From a bacterium (GTDB lineage: Bacteria; RBG-13-66-14), in assembly GCA_035528375.1 (NCBI GenBank), contig DATKYS010000057.1, forward strand, positions 1-10,702: DNA of 10,702 nt, in the 5' to 3' direction. The notes below the pieces were generated by a model. It made no database searches and was not told where the DNA came from. It saw only the letters and a program-made list of their open reading frames with translations. Every line of letters begins with the position of its first letter. Position 1 is the stretch's first letter. The position numbers and the translations under genes were made by a program. This document shows positions 1,252 through 10,119 of the stretch, one piece after another.

Positions 1252-3105
1252 TTGACGGAGGCCATCAAATCCAAGGGGAGCGACTTCTGGCCGGTCCTGG
1301 CGCTTGGCGGGCTCGTCCTCGTCGCGTACCTGGCGGTCTCGCCCGCCGGGTTCTCCCTGGGCGACGGACCCGAGCTGGCCGCCTCCGCTGTCCTTCTCGG
1401 GATTCCCCACCCGCCCGGGTATCCCCTCTTCATCAACCTGGGCCACCTGTTCACCGCGCTCGCGGGCGACGGGCTCTTGGGTCTGCGCCTTTTGAACGTC
1501 CTCGCCGTTTCCGCCGCGGCGGGTTTCGTCTTCGGTGCCCTGGGCGCGCTCGGGCTCAGGCGGACGTCGGCCTTTCTCGCGACCCTTTTATTCTCCGCCT
1601 CCGCCATCGCCGTCCGGGGGGCGGTCTTCGTCGAGGTTTACGGCTTCACCCTGCTAGGCCTCGCTGTGGTTCTATGGGCGATTATCCGCAGCCGGGGCGA
1701 CAAGGCGACGACCCGGGACCTCCTCGCGCTGGCCCTCTGTTACGGTCTGGCCCTGGCCCACCACATCACCCAAATTTTCCTGGCGCCGGCCGTCCTCTAC
1801 GTTTTAATCAGGTACGCGCGGGAAAAGAAACCGCCGGCGGCCTTCTACGCCCTGTTTACGACGGCGGGGCTCCTCGGCCTCTCGGCCTACCTCTACCTCC
1901 CGGTCCGGACAGCCGCGGGCCCGGCCGTCGCCTGGTTCTCACCGGACAGCCTGGAGAGGCTGGGCTTCGTCCTCGGGGGCGCCAGCTACGGCGAGTACTG
2001 GGGCGTGAGCGGCGGTTACTTCTGGAGCAACGCGGGGCTGCTGGGCGGGTACCTCTTGGGTCAGCTCCCGGTGTACCTCGTCGGGGCGTCCCTGGCCGGG
2101 TTCGCGCTCTTGGTCCGGCGGCGGCCGGTGCTGACGGTTGCCCTGGCCGCGGGGGCGCTGGCCGACCTCTACTGGGCGGCGCGGTACGCCGTCATCGGGC
2201 TCGAGGTCTTCTTCCTCCTGGGGTGCTTCCTCTTCGTCTTCGCGGCGGTGTACGCGCTCGGATACGCGCTGGACCGCCTGTTCACCTTCGTCGAGGAGCG
2301 GAGGGTGGGGCTGCTATGCGCGGTCCGGGGAGCGGGCTCGGCCGCCGTAGCCGTCCTGGCCGTGGCCGGCTTCCTGAACGCCTCGGTGCCGGAGGATCTG
2401 GCGGTGCGGCCCCACGGTGCGAACCTCTTGCGCTGCCCGCCGCCGGATGCCGCGGTCCTCTTCACGGGGGACCTCAGCTTCCCCCTCCTCTACCGTCACT
2501 ACGCCCGCGACGGGCGGCCGGATGTCGTCGTGGCGGACGAGGCCGGGATGATAACCTCCCCCCGGGTTCAGGCGCTGGTCCGGCGGCGAATTTCCGACGG
2601 CGCCGAGGCGTTCTACTCCGACCCCCCCCAGAGCGCGAACCGGTTCCCCGCGGCCCGCTGGGGCTACGGTTACCTCTTCCCCCCCGTGGCGGCGACGACG
2701 TCGGCCCGGCCCACGGCGTACCTCGAGGCGGTCGGGCCCGGCGGGATTTACGCCGACGAGACGGCCGCTCGCTACCTCCTGGCCCGCTTCGAAACCCCGG
2801 GCGGCGCCCCGCTGTGGGAGGTCGCCGGAGAACGAGCCTCGGAGTACGCCGGGGTTTCGCCCCACGCCCACCTCGCCCTGGGCCGGTGGCTGTTGGAGAG
2901 AAATCCCGGCGCCGCGGCGGAGGAGTTCCGTCGGGCCGCGGAGCTGAATCCCTGGATGCCCAGCGCCCGTTACAGCCTTGCCCTGGCTCTTCTGGCCGCG
3001 GGAGACGCACCCGGGGCCCGGGACGAGCTCGAGGCGGCCCTCGCCGGTTTCGCCGAGCCCGAGGTCAAGATTCTCGCGGAGCGCCTCTTGTCCGATCTGC
3101 GCTAG
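1252..3105 (+). CDS. DUF2723 / GT117-type polytopic glycosyltransferase with C-terminal TPR tail
   Basis: This 617-residue membrane protein has the hallmark N-terminal motif of the DUF2723 family: GDGPE at 37-41 followed by 'LGIPHPPGYPLF' near 49-60. Family members, including human TMEM260, are GT-C-fold protein O-mannosyltransferases or relatives. Asp38 and Glu41 sit where GT-C enzymes place the acidic catalytic residues of the first external loop. About ten hydrophobic segments run to roughly residue 370. A soluble domain follows with the family's 'LFTGDLSFPLLYRHYARDG' and 'PDVVVAD' signatures, then two TPR-like units in the last 80 or so residues. The enzyme probably transfers a sugar from a polyprenyl donor on the outer face of the inner membrane; the acceptor is unknown. 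The start is TTG, with GGGGGG at 1242-1247 four nt upstream, and the in-frame TGA at 1228 rules out a longer N-terminus with an ordinary start. The gene appears monocistronic, with a new promoter before glmS. Confidence 0.85.
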   Translation: MTEAIKSKGSDFWPVLALGGLVLVAYLAVSPAGFSLGDGPELAASAVLLGIPHPPGYPLFINLGHLFTALAGDGLLGLRLLNVLAVSAAAGFVFGALGALGLRRTSAFLATLLFSASAIAVRGAVFVEVYGFTLLGLAVVLWAIIRSRGDKATTRDLLALALCYGLALAHHITQIFLAPAVLYVLIRYAREKKPPAAFYALFTTAGLLGLSAYLYLPVRTAAGPAVAWFSPDSLERLGFVLGGASYGEYWGVSGGYFWSNAGLLGGYLLGQLPVYLVGASLAGFALLVRRRPVLTVALAAGALADLYWAARYAVIGLEVFFLLGCFLFVFAAVYALGYALDRLFTFVEERRVGLLCAVRGAGSAAVAVLAVAGFLNASVPEDLAVRPHGANLLRCPPPDAAVLFTGDLSFPLLYRHYARDGRPDVVVADEAGMITSPRVQALVRRRISDGAEAFYSDPPQSANRFPAARWGYGYLFPPVAATTSARPTAYLEAVGPGGIYADETAARYLLARFETPGGAPLWEVAGERASEYAGVSPHAHLALGRWLLERNPGAAAEEFRRAAELNPWMPSARYSLALALLAAGDAPGARDELEAALAGFAEPEVKILAERLLSDLR

Positions 3106-6426: not shown

Positions 6427-8187
6427 TTAAAAATCGCCCAGGCCGGTCCCGAACTCCACTATCTCATTCTCCTGGATGGTCAGGATGGTCAGCGGCTTAT
6501 GGGCCTCGCCGTCGGCGTCGAAGCTGGTCTTGCCGACGATGCCGGGGTAGTCGCGGACCGCGAGGAGGCGGTCGGCCAGTTCCGAGCGGGAGACGGCCCC
6601 CGAGTCCAGGGTCGCGGCGATGATGCCGAAGGTGTCGTAGGCGTGGGCGGCGAGGTAGGAGGGTTCGTCCCCCGCCCGCCCCCGGAAGCCGACGATGAAG
6701 GACTGGACCTCGGGCCGCCGGCTCCGGGAGAAGATGGCGTCGCAGAAGATGGCCCCCTCCACGTACCGCAGGCCCATCCGCGTCACCGACTCGGCGTTCC
6801 AACCGTTCCCCCCCACCAGCTCGGCCACGATGCCGTAGTACACGAGCTGCGCCGCCAGCTCGGTGAGGGTCGGCTGGTGCCCCGGGATGAAGATGGCGTC
6901 CAGACCCAGCTTGCGGAAGACCTGGCACTCCTCGGTGTAGGACTTGTCCTCCAGCGGGTAGCCCTGCTCGGTCACCACGGAGATGCCGAATCCCGGCGCG
7001 ATGCGCTTGAAAGCGTCGCGCATCCCCTCGCCGTAAGCCGTCTCCTCGAAGAGGATGCCGAAGCGGTCGAGGTGGAGGCGCTCGGAGCAGAACTTGGCCA
7101 GGGTTTCGCACTGGGCCTCGTAAGTCAGCGCGTTGCGGAAGGCGAAGGGCGAGAGCGCGGCGAGGCCCTTCTCCGTGGCCGCGGGGGTGACCAGGGGCAT
7201 CCGGTACTCGTCGGCCCACGGGATGCAGGCGCGGAAGGCGGTGGAGGATAGCGGTCCGATGACCGCGATGGCTTGGGATTCCTCCGCCAGGCTCCGCAGG
7301 CCCCTGACGGCGCCCTCGTCGGTGTCCCCGCTGTCGGCGACCACCACCTCTAGCTTGCGGCTGTGGGAGGCGTTGTACTCCGAGGCGGCCACCTCGACGG
7401 CGTAGCGCACCTCGCGCCCGTAGGGGGCCATGTCCCCCGTGAGCGGCACCAGGCAGCCGATGACCTTGGGCTTGAGGGCCATGCCCGCGGTTATTTCCTC
7501 CAGGAGCGCGGGGGCCTTGTCGCGGAATTCGGTGGCCAGGGGGTGCTCGGTGAGCCGGCGGAGGTAGAGGGCGGCCGACTCCATGTCGCCCCGCCCGTAA
7601 GCCTCCGTGCCCAGCGTGTAGAGGAGGTACGCCCCGAGGTAGGTGTTCTCGAACTCCTCGAGGAGCTGCCGCTGGTGCTCCCGGTCCAGCACTTCGTAGT
7701 GCTGGGTGAAGCCCTCGAGGGCCGTTTCGGCCAGCCGGTTGTCGGGGTCGGCGGCGATTTTGGCCAGGGCGTAGGCCGCCTCGAAGTACTCCCCCTGCTC
7801 GCTCAACGCCCGGGCGTAGAGAACCTGGGCGTCCTCGGCCAGCTCGTGGCGGGGGAACTCCTTCAAGAAGTCGGCGAAATCGCTTTCCGCCTCGGCGAAC
7901 CGGCCGACCCGCAGCTTCGAGTAGGCCAGGCGGTAGAGGGCGATGGGGTAGAGCCGCGTGTAGGAGTAAACGTCCACGACGGCCTGGAACCCCTGGATGG
8001 CGCCGGCGTAGTCCTTCGCCTCGTAGGCCGCGTTCGCCCGCTCGAAGTGTTCCCGGGCGCGGTCGGGTATCTCGCCGTTCTCGGGCTGGCAGGCGCCGAT
8101 GACGAGCGCGAGGACGACCAACGAGAGCGGTCCCGGCAGGGGGATTTGCCTCCGGGCGCAGACATGCCTTCGGCCGCGGATACTCAA
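6427..8187 (-). CDS. TPR / type-1 periplasmic-binding-protein lipoprotein (LpoA-like architecture)
   Basis: With the chosen start the protein has 586 residues. Residues 1-32 form a lipoprotein signal peptide with several Arg, a hydrophobic core and the lipobox VIGAC (Cys33). Residues about 42-235 contain TPR-like helical repeats (for example 'ERANAAYEAKDYAGAIQGF'). From about 240 to the C-terminus is a Leu/Ile/Val-binding-type fold: 'VIGCLVPLTGDMAPYG', then 'VIGPLSSTAF', 'PLVTPAAT', 'YGEGMRDAF', and 'AHAYDTFGII' late in the domain. TPR plus this fold on a lipoprotein is the architecture of LpoA, the activator of PBP1A, so a cell-wall role is possible. Retained TPAAT and GPLSST motifs, which line the amino-acid pocket in LIV-binding proteins, argue that it may still bind a ligand. 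No ABC permease is adjacent. The TTG at 8187 is preferred over the in-frame GTG at 8226 because GGAGGG lies five nt upstream and the promoter at 8241-8270 leaves no leader for the longer form. Confidence 0.85.
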   Translation of the reverse strand: MSIRGRRHVCARRQIPLPGPLSLVVLALVIGACQPENGEIPDRAREHFERANAAYEAKDYAGAIQGFQAVVDVYSYTRLYPIALYRLAYSKLRVGRFAEAESDFADFLKEFPRHELAEDAQVLYARALSEQGEYFEAAYALAKIAADPDNRLAETALEGFTQHYEVLDREHQRQLLEEFENTYLGAYLLYTLGTEAYGRGDMESAALYLRRLTEHPLATEFRDKAPALLEEITAGMALKPKVIGCLVPLTGDMAPYGREVRYAVEVAASEYNASHSRKLEVVVADSGDTDEGAVRGLRSLAEESQAIAVIGPLSSTAFRACIPWADEYRMPLVTPAATEKGLAALSPFAFRNALTYEAQCETLAKFCSERLHLDRFGILFEETAYGEGMRDAFKRIAPGFGISVVTEQGYPLEDKSYTEECQVFRKLGLDAIFIPGHQPTLTELAAQLVYYGIVAELVGGNGWNAESVTRMGLRYVEGAIFCDAIFSRSRRPEVQSFIVGFRGRAGDEPSYLAAHAYDTFGIIAATLDSGAVSRSELADRLLAVRDYPGIVGKTSFDADGEAHKPLTILTIQENEIVEFGTGLGDF

Positions 8188-8240
8188 GCCGACCCTCCAC
8201 GGGGGCGTTAAAGACGGGAGACGCACGGTCCCGAGAGGGA

Positions 8241-8270
8241 ATTATACCCCGGCGGCCCCGGGATGGTCAA
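8241..8270 (-). promoter_or_regulatory. Predicted sigma70-type promoter for the TPR/periplasmic-binding lipoprotein
   Basis: On the minus strand, TTGACC (8270-8265) and a perfect TATAAT (8246-8241) are separated by 18 nt. This is the best two-box promoter in the window. Transcription would begin near 8234, giving a leader of about 47 nt to the TTG start with its GGAGGG. Confidence 0.75.
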
Positions 8271-8422: not shown

Positions 8423-8448
8423 ATTCCCCGGTATTTCTAGGAGGGTCG

Positions 8449-10119
8449 GTGCCCAAGAAGCGCCTCGGAGAGCTGATGGTGGAGCGGGGGTTCGCCACCC
8501 GGGAGCAGGTCCAGCGCCTCCTGGATCGGCAGCGGTCCGTGGGCGGGCTCCTGGGCACCCTGGCCGTCAACGAGGGCGTCGTCAGCGAGCAGCAGCTCAA
8601 GCGTCTCCTGGCGGAACAGGCCGGGGTGGATCCCGTTCCCGACGATTTCCGGTTCACCCCGGAGCTGGCCGCGCTCCTGCCGGTCCGCGAGGCGAAGAAG
8701 TACGGGGTCGTGCCGTTGAAACAGGATCGGCGCCGCCTGGCCATCGGCACCGCCGAGCCCCAGAACGTCCTCGTCCTCGATGAGCTGGCCTTCGTGACCG
8801 GCAAGGAGGTCGTTCCCTACCTGATGCTGGAGATGGAGCTGGCCGACGCCCTGGACGCGGTTTACACCGACGCCGTCCGGGAACGTCCCGCACCGGACCT
8901 CCCCCCGCCGCCCCCGGGCCGGCCGACGGTCGAGCCGCGGCCTGCGGTCGAGCCGGTGTTCCGCGGTTACACGCCGGGCGCCGACAGCCCGGTGGCGCGG
9001 CTGGTCGGGGCGGCCCTGGACGCGGGGGGCGAGTTCGTCCACCTCCAGGAGACGGACGGCGGCCTCTACGTCCGCCTACGGCGCGCCGGGGTCCTGGAAC
9101 CCGCCCCCTTCCAACTGGCCGCGAGCAGCCGGACCCTCCTCAATCAGCTCAAGGTCCTGGCGGGACTCCCCACCTCGGAGCGCACCCAGCAGCAGAAGGG
9201 CCACTTCCGTCTGAACCTGGGCGGCAACATCGTGTCGGTCTCGGCCATCTTCATCCCCACCGCCCGGGGCGAGCGCGCCGTGCTGCGCCTGGACACAAAC
9301 CGCTCCGGGGTGCCCACCTTCGAGGAACTGGCGGTGCCCGAGAGACTGGCCGTTCTCCTTCGGGAGTCCGGCGAGGGCCGCCACGGCCTGATCGTCCTCT
9401 CCGGTCCGCCCTTCTCGCGCAAGAAAGACCTGGCCTACGCCCTGCTGGCCGAAATGGACGGGAGGAGCCGGGCGATTCTGACCGTGGAGGAGCACACCAC
9501 CTTCAGCCTGGAGGAGGTGGACACCCTGCGGCCCCACCCCGAGGACGGCCTCACCTACGCCGACGCCGTGGATGCCGTCCTGGAGCAGGACCCCGACGTG
9601 CTCTTCGTGGACGAGCTCTCCTCCGCCGAGGTGGCCAACACCCTCATCGGCGCCAGCTACGCCCGCATCCTGGTCATCCTCCGGCTGGCGAGCTCGGGCA
9701 TCCTGTCCGCGGTGCTGGCCCTGAAGGAGGTCGGCAAGGAGCCGTTCCTCCTCGCCAGCTCCCTGGTGCTGGTCACGAGCCAGCGGGAGCTCCGCCGTCT
9801 CTGCCCCCGCTGCAAGCGGCCCTACAAGGCCACGAAGGCGGTTCTCGACAGCCTGCACATCGCCGCCACGCGCCCCTTCACGTTCTACGAGGCGCCGGGC
9901 TGCGAGGAGTGCCACCACACCGGCTCCTCGGGCACGGTCCTCATCTACGAGCACCTGACGCCCAACGCCCAGATCAGGCAGCTCCTGGCCGGGGACCTCT
10001 CCATCGAGGAGCTCAGCCGGGCGGCCCGCCGGGCGGGGCTCCGGAGTGCCCGTGAGATCGGGCTCGAGCTGGCCCTCTCCGGCGACATCTCCGTGGCCGA
10101 GCTCCTGCGCCTGACGTAA
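8449..10119 (+). CDS. PilB/GspE-family protein with MshEN domain and degenerate ATPase site
   Basis: This 556-residue protein resembles the assembly ATPases of type IV pili and type II secretion. Residues 1-140 are an MshEN/T2SSE_N domain with two tandem motifs (RLGELM...LLDRQ at 5-28; LLGTLA...LLAEQ at 34-57), the kind that binds cyclic di-GMP in MshE. A Pro-rich linker (about 145-169) leads to the ATPase-like half. 'PVARLVGAAL' and 'GERAVLRL' are recognisable, but the active site is eroded. Walker A is GPPFSRKK (319-326) instead of GPTGSGKT, the Asp box is VEEH (347-350) instead of VEDP, and EIRD has become ELSS (389-392). The His box (402-411) has no His. Walker B keeps D381-D383 and D388-E389. 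Four zinc-site cysteines remain (452, 455, 485, 488). The GTG start has AGGAGGG at 8439-8445. It is probably a catalytically inactive paralogue with a sensory or structural role. Confidence 0.85.
   Translation: MPKKRLGELMVERGFATREQVQRLLDRQRSVGGLLGTLAVNEGVVSEQQLKRLLAEQAGVDPVPDDFRFTPELAALLPVREAKKYGVVPLKQDRRRLAIGTAEPQNVLVLDELAFVTGKEVVPYLMLEMELADALDAVYTDAVRERPAPDLPPPPPGRPTVEPRPAVEPVFRGYTPGADSPVARLVGAALDAGGEFVHLQETDGGLYVRLRRAGVLEPAPFQLAASSRTLLNQLKVLAGLPTSERTQQQKGHFRLNLGGNIVSVSAIFIPTARGERAVLRLDTNRSGVPTFEELAVPERLAVLLRESGEGRHGLIVLSGPPFSRKKDLAYALLAEMDGRSRAILTVEEHTTFSLEEVDTLRPHPEDGLTYADAVDAVLEQDPDVLFVDELSSAEVANTLIGASYARILVILRLASSGILSAVLALKEVGKEPFLLASSLVLVTSQRELRRLCPRCKRPYKATKAVLDSLHIAATRPFTFYEAPGCEECHHTGSSGTVLIYEHLTPNAQIRQLLAGDLSIEELSRAARRAGLRSAREIGLELALSGDISVAELLRLT

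Follow-up and report, generated by a model that had tools for sequence, protein, structure and literature searches.

MshE binds cyclic di-GMP (c-di-GMP) through a motif of 53 residues, mutation of its Gly11 abrogates this binding, and XpsE has lost the motif (PMC5013675). A second type of control acts in trans: a separate c-di-GMP receptor acts on the pilus extension ATPase PilB in the FimX-PilZ-PilB system of Xanthomonas and Pseudomonas (PMC5595344, PMC8389850). Furthermore, Walker-dead PilT still supports PilU (PMC6821130), and ATPase-deficient PilB of M. xanthus still signals for exopolysaccharide (EPS) (PMC5544727). A natural pseudo-ATPase of the PilB/GspE family was not found described in the open-access papers searched.

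Here we describe a protein from a member of Candidatus Coatesbacteria, encoded in a stretch of 10,702 nucleotides (the window), that has the architecture and the predicted fold of PilB but a ruined ATPase site, and that we call pseudo-PilB. The original prediction saw in it a PilB/GspE-type protein with a destroyed ATPase site and intact MshEN motifs, retained for nucleotide sensing or for binding a pilus or secretion platform, perhaps as a modulator of an active paralogue.

Gene and predicted fold

The reading frame of pseudo-PilB runs from a GTG at 8449 to the stop codon at 10117-10119 and is open throughout its 556 codons (Table 1). A longer version beginning at an ATG at 8263 is unsupported, the orthologous frames in two relatives (G002 and G003) being open for only three codons before the GTG position. 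The product matches the Pfam profile T2SSE of the type II/IV secretion ATPase superfamily (168.1 bits, cut-off 24.9) as well as the MshEN profile (54.0 bits with the protein, 57.7 bits in the genome search, cut-off 23.1). It stays far below the cut-offs of the equivalog models for PilB (TIGR02538, 214.6 bits, cut-off 675.65) and GspE (TIGR02533, 238.8 bits, cut-off 630.25); the intact PilB paralogue, at 623.9 bits, is likewise below that of TIGR02538.

An AF2 model built from 40 sequences has a mean pLDDT of 85.5 and is poor only in the linker at residues 144-177. The closest solved folds are those of PilB/GspE, among them PilB 5tsh and PilF 5oiu (TM by target up to 0.85). Since the model matches GspE and PilB structures, the predicted fold is intact, though the active site is not.

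Table 1. Features of the pseudo-PilB locus (positions in the window)
Feature	Position	Strand	Remarks
TMEM260-like O-mannosyltransferase-type membrane protein	1252-3105	+	C-terminal TPR
Divergent TPR and periplasmic-binding-protein-like protein	6427-8226	-	Peripla_BP_6, BamD-like TPRs
Shine-Dalgarno-like AGGAGG	8437-8446	+	directly 5' of the pseudo-PilB GTG; from sequence
Pseudo-PilB, PilB/GspE-like pseudo-ATPase	8449-10119	+	556 aa, GTG start; six orthologues, AF2 model
Tandem c-di-GMP-binding motif (by sequence)	8461-8619	+	residues 5-57: RLGELMVERGFATREQVQRLLDRQ - RSVGG - LLGTLAVNEGVVSEQQLKRLLAEQ
MshEN domain, Pfam PF05157	8641-8874	+	residues 65-142
Degenerate Walker A GPPFSRKK	9403-9426	+	residues 319-326; 7 of 8 positions invariant in the family
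Degenerate ASP box EEHTT	9487-9501	+	residues 347-351; Thr351 in place of the Glu that coordinates Mg2+
Altered Walker B region, D388 E389 L S S392	9610-9624	+	EIRD Arg and Asp lost
Degenerate HIS box ILVILRLA	9667-9690	+	residues 407-414; H413 to Ile407, H420 to Ala414
Tetra-cysteine zinc site, intact	9802-9912	+	C452, C455, C485, C488
Downstream gene, about 175 aa	10212-10702	+	cut by contig end; all-helical model, no known family

Degeneration of the ATPase site

Residues were mapped onto PilB of Geobacter metallireducens through a PDB alignment, and their roles were taken from PMC5424180. In Walker A, Lys325 is retained, the preceding Gly has become Arg and the following Thr Lys. The ASP box reads VEEHTTF in place of VEDPVEY, which puts Thr351 at the position of the Mg2+ ligand E357 (G. 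metallireducens PilB numbering), and the Arg and Asp of EIRD are Ser391 and Ser392. The original prediction had placed and read Walker A exactly, and the mapping bears out its altered Asp box (VEEH), lost EIRD Arg and His box without His, as well as the open frame and the intact zinc cysteines. Its word "destroyed" holds for the motifs; the site is not wholly erased, as Lys325, the catalytic Glu389, Arg280 (R286 equivalent) and Arg449 (R455 equivalent) remain.

Besides the window copy there are six orthologues with open frames, 59-95% identical, in four genera of a single Coatesbacteria family, the named relatives among these being metagenome-assembled genomes. All seven copies have lost the second Walker A Gly, the Walker A Thr, the ASP-box Glu (E357 to T, S or A), the arginine finger R271 (to S, A or G), H413, H420 and the EIRD Arg and Asp. 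The Gly that precedes the Walker A Lys is missing from six and survives in G004. Walker A reads GPPFS[RGK]KK throughout; an orthologue with an intact GxxxxGK[ST] was to have pointed to a sequencing error in the window, and none has one. All seven keep the Walker A Lys, together with the four zinc cysteines and the equivalent of the inter-chain R455, the features by which the PilB/GspE clade is recognized. The catalytic Glu is found in six (it is Asp in G004), as is the arginine finger R286, and the closed-interface contacts T411 and T327 are changed.

None of the six intact PilBs of the family has lost any of the catalytic residues listed. In other lineages, the inspected PilB/GspE-type reading frames that span the ATPase core all carry an intact GxxxxGK[ST]; the sole frame without it (L077) is a short match to MshEN only. 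The losses are thus not due to chance, as they are common to all seven orthologues and absent from the PilB/GspE frames of other lineages that cover the site.

The dead P-loop is under strong constraint, with seven of eight positions invariant as compared to 40% of columns overall, and all seven copies have Asp where PilT-like ATPases carry their atypical Walker B Gly (9610-9615 in the window). Taken together, this hints that the loop may have acquired a new role. It might be re-wired rather than dead, such that GPPFS[RGK]KK would bind an anion or a nucleotide without the usual Mg2+ arrangement while Asp388 and Glu389 take over the metal; the invariant loop, the universal Lys325 and the acidic pair (with Asp for Glu389 in G004) would fit such a site. 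However, the copies lack the Gly before the Lys (except in G004) and the Thr after it, as well as the ASP-box Glu, both His and one arginine finger, and the ATPase core is the part that is less conserved than in PilB, which makes this reading improbable in our eyes.

Distribution and selection

Pseudo-PilB is present in seven of the 14 genomes analysed from the phylum, namely the seven of one family (G000-G006), and absent from the other seven. No further orthologue was found outside the family in 386 genomes, the lowest-scoring orthologue having 978 bits and the next match 313. The seven genomes of the phylum without pseudo-PilB gave no match above cut-off for T2SSE, T2SSF or a secretin, such that the gene is found in 7/7 genomes of the family with type IV pilus (T4P) genes and in 0/7 without them. 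This co-occurrence counts as one evolutionary event, because a single family is set against the rest of the phylum. An intact PilB accompanies pseudo-PilB in six of the seven genomes; none was found in G002, whose genome is 75% complete.

Pairwise dN/dS values (Nei-Gojobori, which ignores codon bias in these high-GC genomes) are 0.18-0.25 within and 0.28-0.47 between genera for pseudo-PilB, and 0.16 and 0.20-0.40, respectively, for intact PilB. Pseudo-PilB is maintained as a protein under purifying selection. A sequencing error, an assembly fault or a decaying pseudogene has nothing to recommend it but the degenerate motifs themselves, whereas the losses are common to seven separate assemblies with open frames and dN/dS lies at 0.18-0.47; we give this reading practically no weight and regard it as ruled out by the orthologues and the dN/dS values. 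That a pseudo-ATPase has been retained by selection, as originally proposed, is well supported by the shared losses, the open frames, dN/dS and conservation.

The c-di-GMP motif and its loss from the intact PilB

NF053729, a curated NCBI model that comprises two 24-residue motifs and a 5-residue spacer (cut-off 38 bits), scores 58.3 bits on residues 1-60 of the window protein, which places the motif there. Compared to the consensus taken from PMC5013675 and PMC11731258, both motifs fit closely and the spacer has exactly five residues. The claim of intact MshEN motifs therefore stands, with the amendment that motif II begins with Leu instead of Arg; the extended consensus allows R, K or L at this position (PMC11731258).

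The six pseudo-ATPases that could be scored (the G001 copy ends at a contig end and was left out) reach 58.3, 54.4, 49.5, 43.9, 41.4 and 61.1 bits, all above the cut-off. The six intact PilBs of Coatesbacteria, with 21.0, 22.1, 23.5, 16.1, 20.9 and 19.4 bits, all fall below it; three PilBs from other phyla score 76.0, 72.6 and 77.1 bits. At the position of MshE Gly11 in motif I, all six scored pseudo-ATPases have Gly, whereas all six intact PilBs have Glu or Ala. The counterpart in motif II is Gly in the former and Ile or Val in the latter. In G004 and G006, motif I of the pseudo-ATPase carries two changes (R to P, Q to A) that may weaken c-di-GMP binding, though the GSPII-C of Thermus PilF has Pro at the first position of a motif and yet binds c-di-GMP (PMC11731258). 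Retention for nucleotide sensing, as the original prediction had it, thus finds its support at the sequence level, with NF053729 passed in 6/6 scored orthologues.

The two paralogues differ in where they are conserved. Mean identity across the same four genomes is higher in pseudo-PilB than in PilB for MshEN_N (0.63 vs 0.51), MshEN_C (0.71 vs 0.61) and the zinc/C-terminal module (0.74 vs 0.66), but lower for N2D (0.53 vs 0.77) and the ATPase core (0.59 vs 0.82). In 10,000 permutations, no region-by-paralogue interaction came out as large as in this mirrored pattern. Loss of the motif from PilB alone is not unusual, as XpsE illustrates elsewhere; the pairing with a motif-bearing pseudo-ATPase is the unusual part. 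Since the intact PilBs are without the c-di-GMP motif, the complementary degeneration has the look of a division of labour, more than of a spare copy. In the phylum, MshEN domains occur in no proteins other than PilB and pseudo-PilB. GGDEF domains are encoded in the pseudo-PilB family, and also in the relatives that lack T4P.

One could also imagine that inactive pseudo-PilB subunits are built into PilB hexamers and thereby tune the motor. The common fold, the R455 equivalent in all seven copies and the second arginine finger in six would permit such a heteromeric ring. But PilT and PilU, a related pair, each assemble into a homohexamer of their own (PMC6821130). In addition, pseudo-PilB has changes at the closed-interface contacts T411 and T327, and its N2D and core are far less conserved than those of PilB, so that we consider mixed rings very improbable.

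The pilus machine and the neighbouring genes

An intact PilB elsewhere in the genome, which the original prediction had said to look for, is found on contig C72 of the window genome (G000). PilB, PilT, PilC and the secretin are each encoded once in this genome, and pseudo-PilB would therefore have a single T4P machine to serve. The genes are scattered (pilB, pilT, pilC and the secretin gene on contigs C72, C110, C47 and C132), with prepilin-like reading frames next to pilC on C47. An operon link of pseudo-PilB to pil genes was not found, those for PilB, PilT, PilC and the secretin lying on other contigs.

The intact pilB gene has an unusual 5' end. Its apparent start codon is ATC in G000, G001, G004 and G006 and ATT in G003, with a Shine-Dalgarno-like GGGGGT, GGAGGG or AGGAG directly upstream; the homologous codon in G005 is GTG. 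In G000 (locus L097, near 2060-2075 of C72, minus strand) an in-frame stop lies two codons before the ATC, and there is no in-frame ATG, GTG or TTG nearby. AUU starts are rare and known from infC and pcnB. A non-standard start could limit or regulate synthesis of the motor, and it would make gene callers truncate PilB.

Downstream of pseudo-PilB lies a gene that occurs in all seven genomes, adjoining pseudo-PilB in six and on a separate contig in G005, and that was found only in the T4P-bearing Coatesbacteria family. Its product has no Pfam match above cut-off and no fold match in the PDB, and its AF2 model is only moderate (pLDDT 71). We consider this helical protein a candidate partner of pseudo-PilB. 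The protein encoded at 6427-8226 is conserved 5' of pseudo-PilB in G002 and G003 (83-93% identical).

These surroundings bear on the question of output. Pseudo-PilB might be a c-di-GMP receptor with an output other than the pilus, e.g., exopolysaccharide or surface signalling, for which the nucleotide-free PilB shape would be the signalling form, perhaps acting via the downstream helical protein. This resonates with M. xanthus, where ATPase-deficient PilB supports EPS and a nucleotide-free form was proposed to signal (PMC5544727), and with a conserved neighbour, present in 7/7 genomes, that is not a pil gene. However, pseudo-PilB and this neighbour are both limited to T4P-bearing genomes, and conservation of the zinc/C-terminal module points to retained contacts of the PilB type. 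We thus regard a non-pilus output as rather unlikely, if the most serious of the alternatives.

Discussion

We propose, with a probability of roughly 0.55, that pseudo-PilB derives from PilB and, as a pseudo-ATPase, provides the single T4P machine of this lineage with its c-di-GMP-sensing subunit. The evidence for a sensor consists of the motifs lost and retained, the inverse pattern of losses in PilB, purifying selection and the occurrence, within the phylum, only together with T4P. Against it counts that pseudo-PilB does not lie beside pil genes and that its neighbour is a helical protein of no known family. We infer that pseudo-PilB binds c-di-GMP and that T4P are its target, and likewise who its partner is and what the output would be; the machine regulated is probably the only T4P present. 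Pseudo-PilB may modulate the active paralogue or bind a platform, as first suggested.

On this proposal, a duplication older than the family would have given rise to two copies of PilB. One would have continued to hydrolyse ATP while its c-di-GMP site was lost; in the other, hydrolysis would have been lost and the c-di-GMP site preserved, along with the zinc/C-terminal module and the PilB fold. High c-di-GMP would then cause a conformational change in the MshEN domain of pseudo-PilB, and its PilB-shaped body, which might form a ring of its own or dock onto PilB, onto the platform PilC or onto a signalling partner, would permit or block pilus extension. In the tree, pseudo-PilB forms a monophyletic clade (100/100) whose branch is very long (2.53). 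The free tree does not place it beside the PilB of its own lineage, and a constraint joining both is not rejected (p-AU 0.54). On such a tree, what we call a duplication of the lineage's own PilB might instead have been an acquisition.

The simplest account would be that an MshE-type function has been split into a motor and a sensor. Whether this was a clean subfunctionalization, in which the motor and the c-di-GMP receptor, which MshE-type ATPases unite in one chain, have come to reside in two PilB paralogues acting in trans on one machine, we consider not quite an even bet. If true, it would represent a new architecture for the control of type IV pili by a second messenger, with a natural pseudo-ATPase as the sensor. 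With the sensing motif and the ATPase on separate paralogues, the two functions could be deleted, bound and imaged separately.

As to known systems, pseudo-PilB shares with the type IVa pilus extension ATPase PilB/PilF (TIGR02538) the MshEN and N2D domains, the ATPase core, the tetra-cysteine zinc site and the fold, but lacks Walker A, the ASP box, the HIS box and one arginine finger. The architecture is also that of MshE, XpsE and GspE, the ATPases of T2SS type (TIGR02533). However, MshE carries sensor and motor in one chain, whereas Coatesbacteria have two paralogues. PilT and PilU, M. xanthus PilB and FimX may, by analogy, serve as precedents for a dead or nucleotide-free member being useful or for action in trans. 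PilT and PilU are two paralogous rings on one machine, as PilB and pseudo-PilB may be, but the dead PilT is an engineered mutant, and natural PilT and PilU are both ATPases. In M. xanthus, one PilB does both jobs, whereas Coatesbacteria would use two genes. Finally, FimX is a degenerate GGDEF-EAL protein, whereas the separate receptor in Coatesbacteria would be a degenerate PilB itself.
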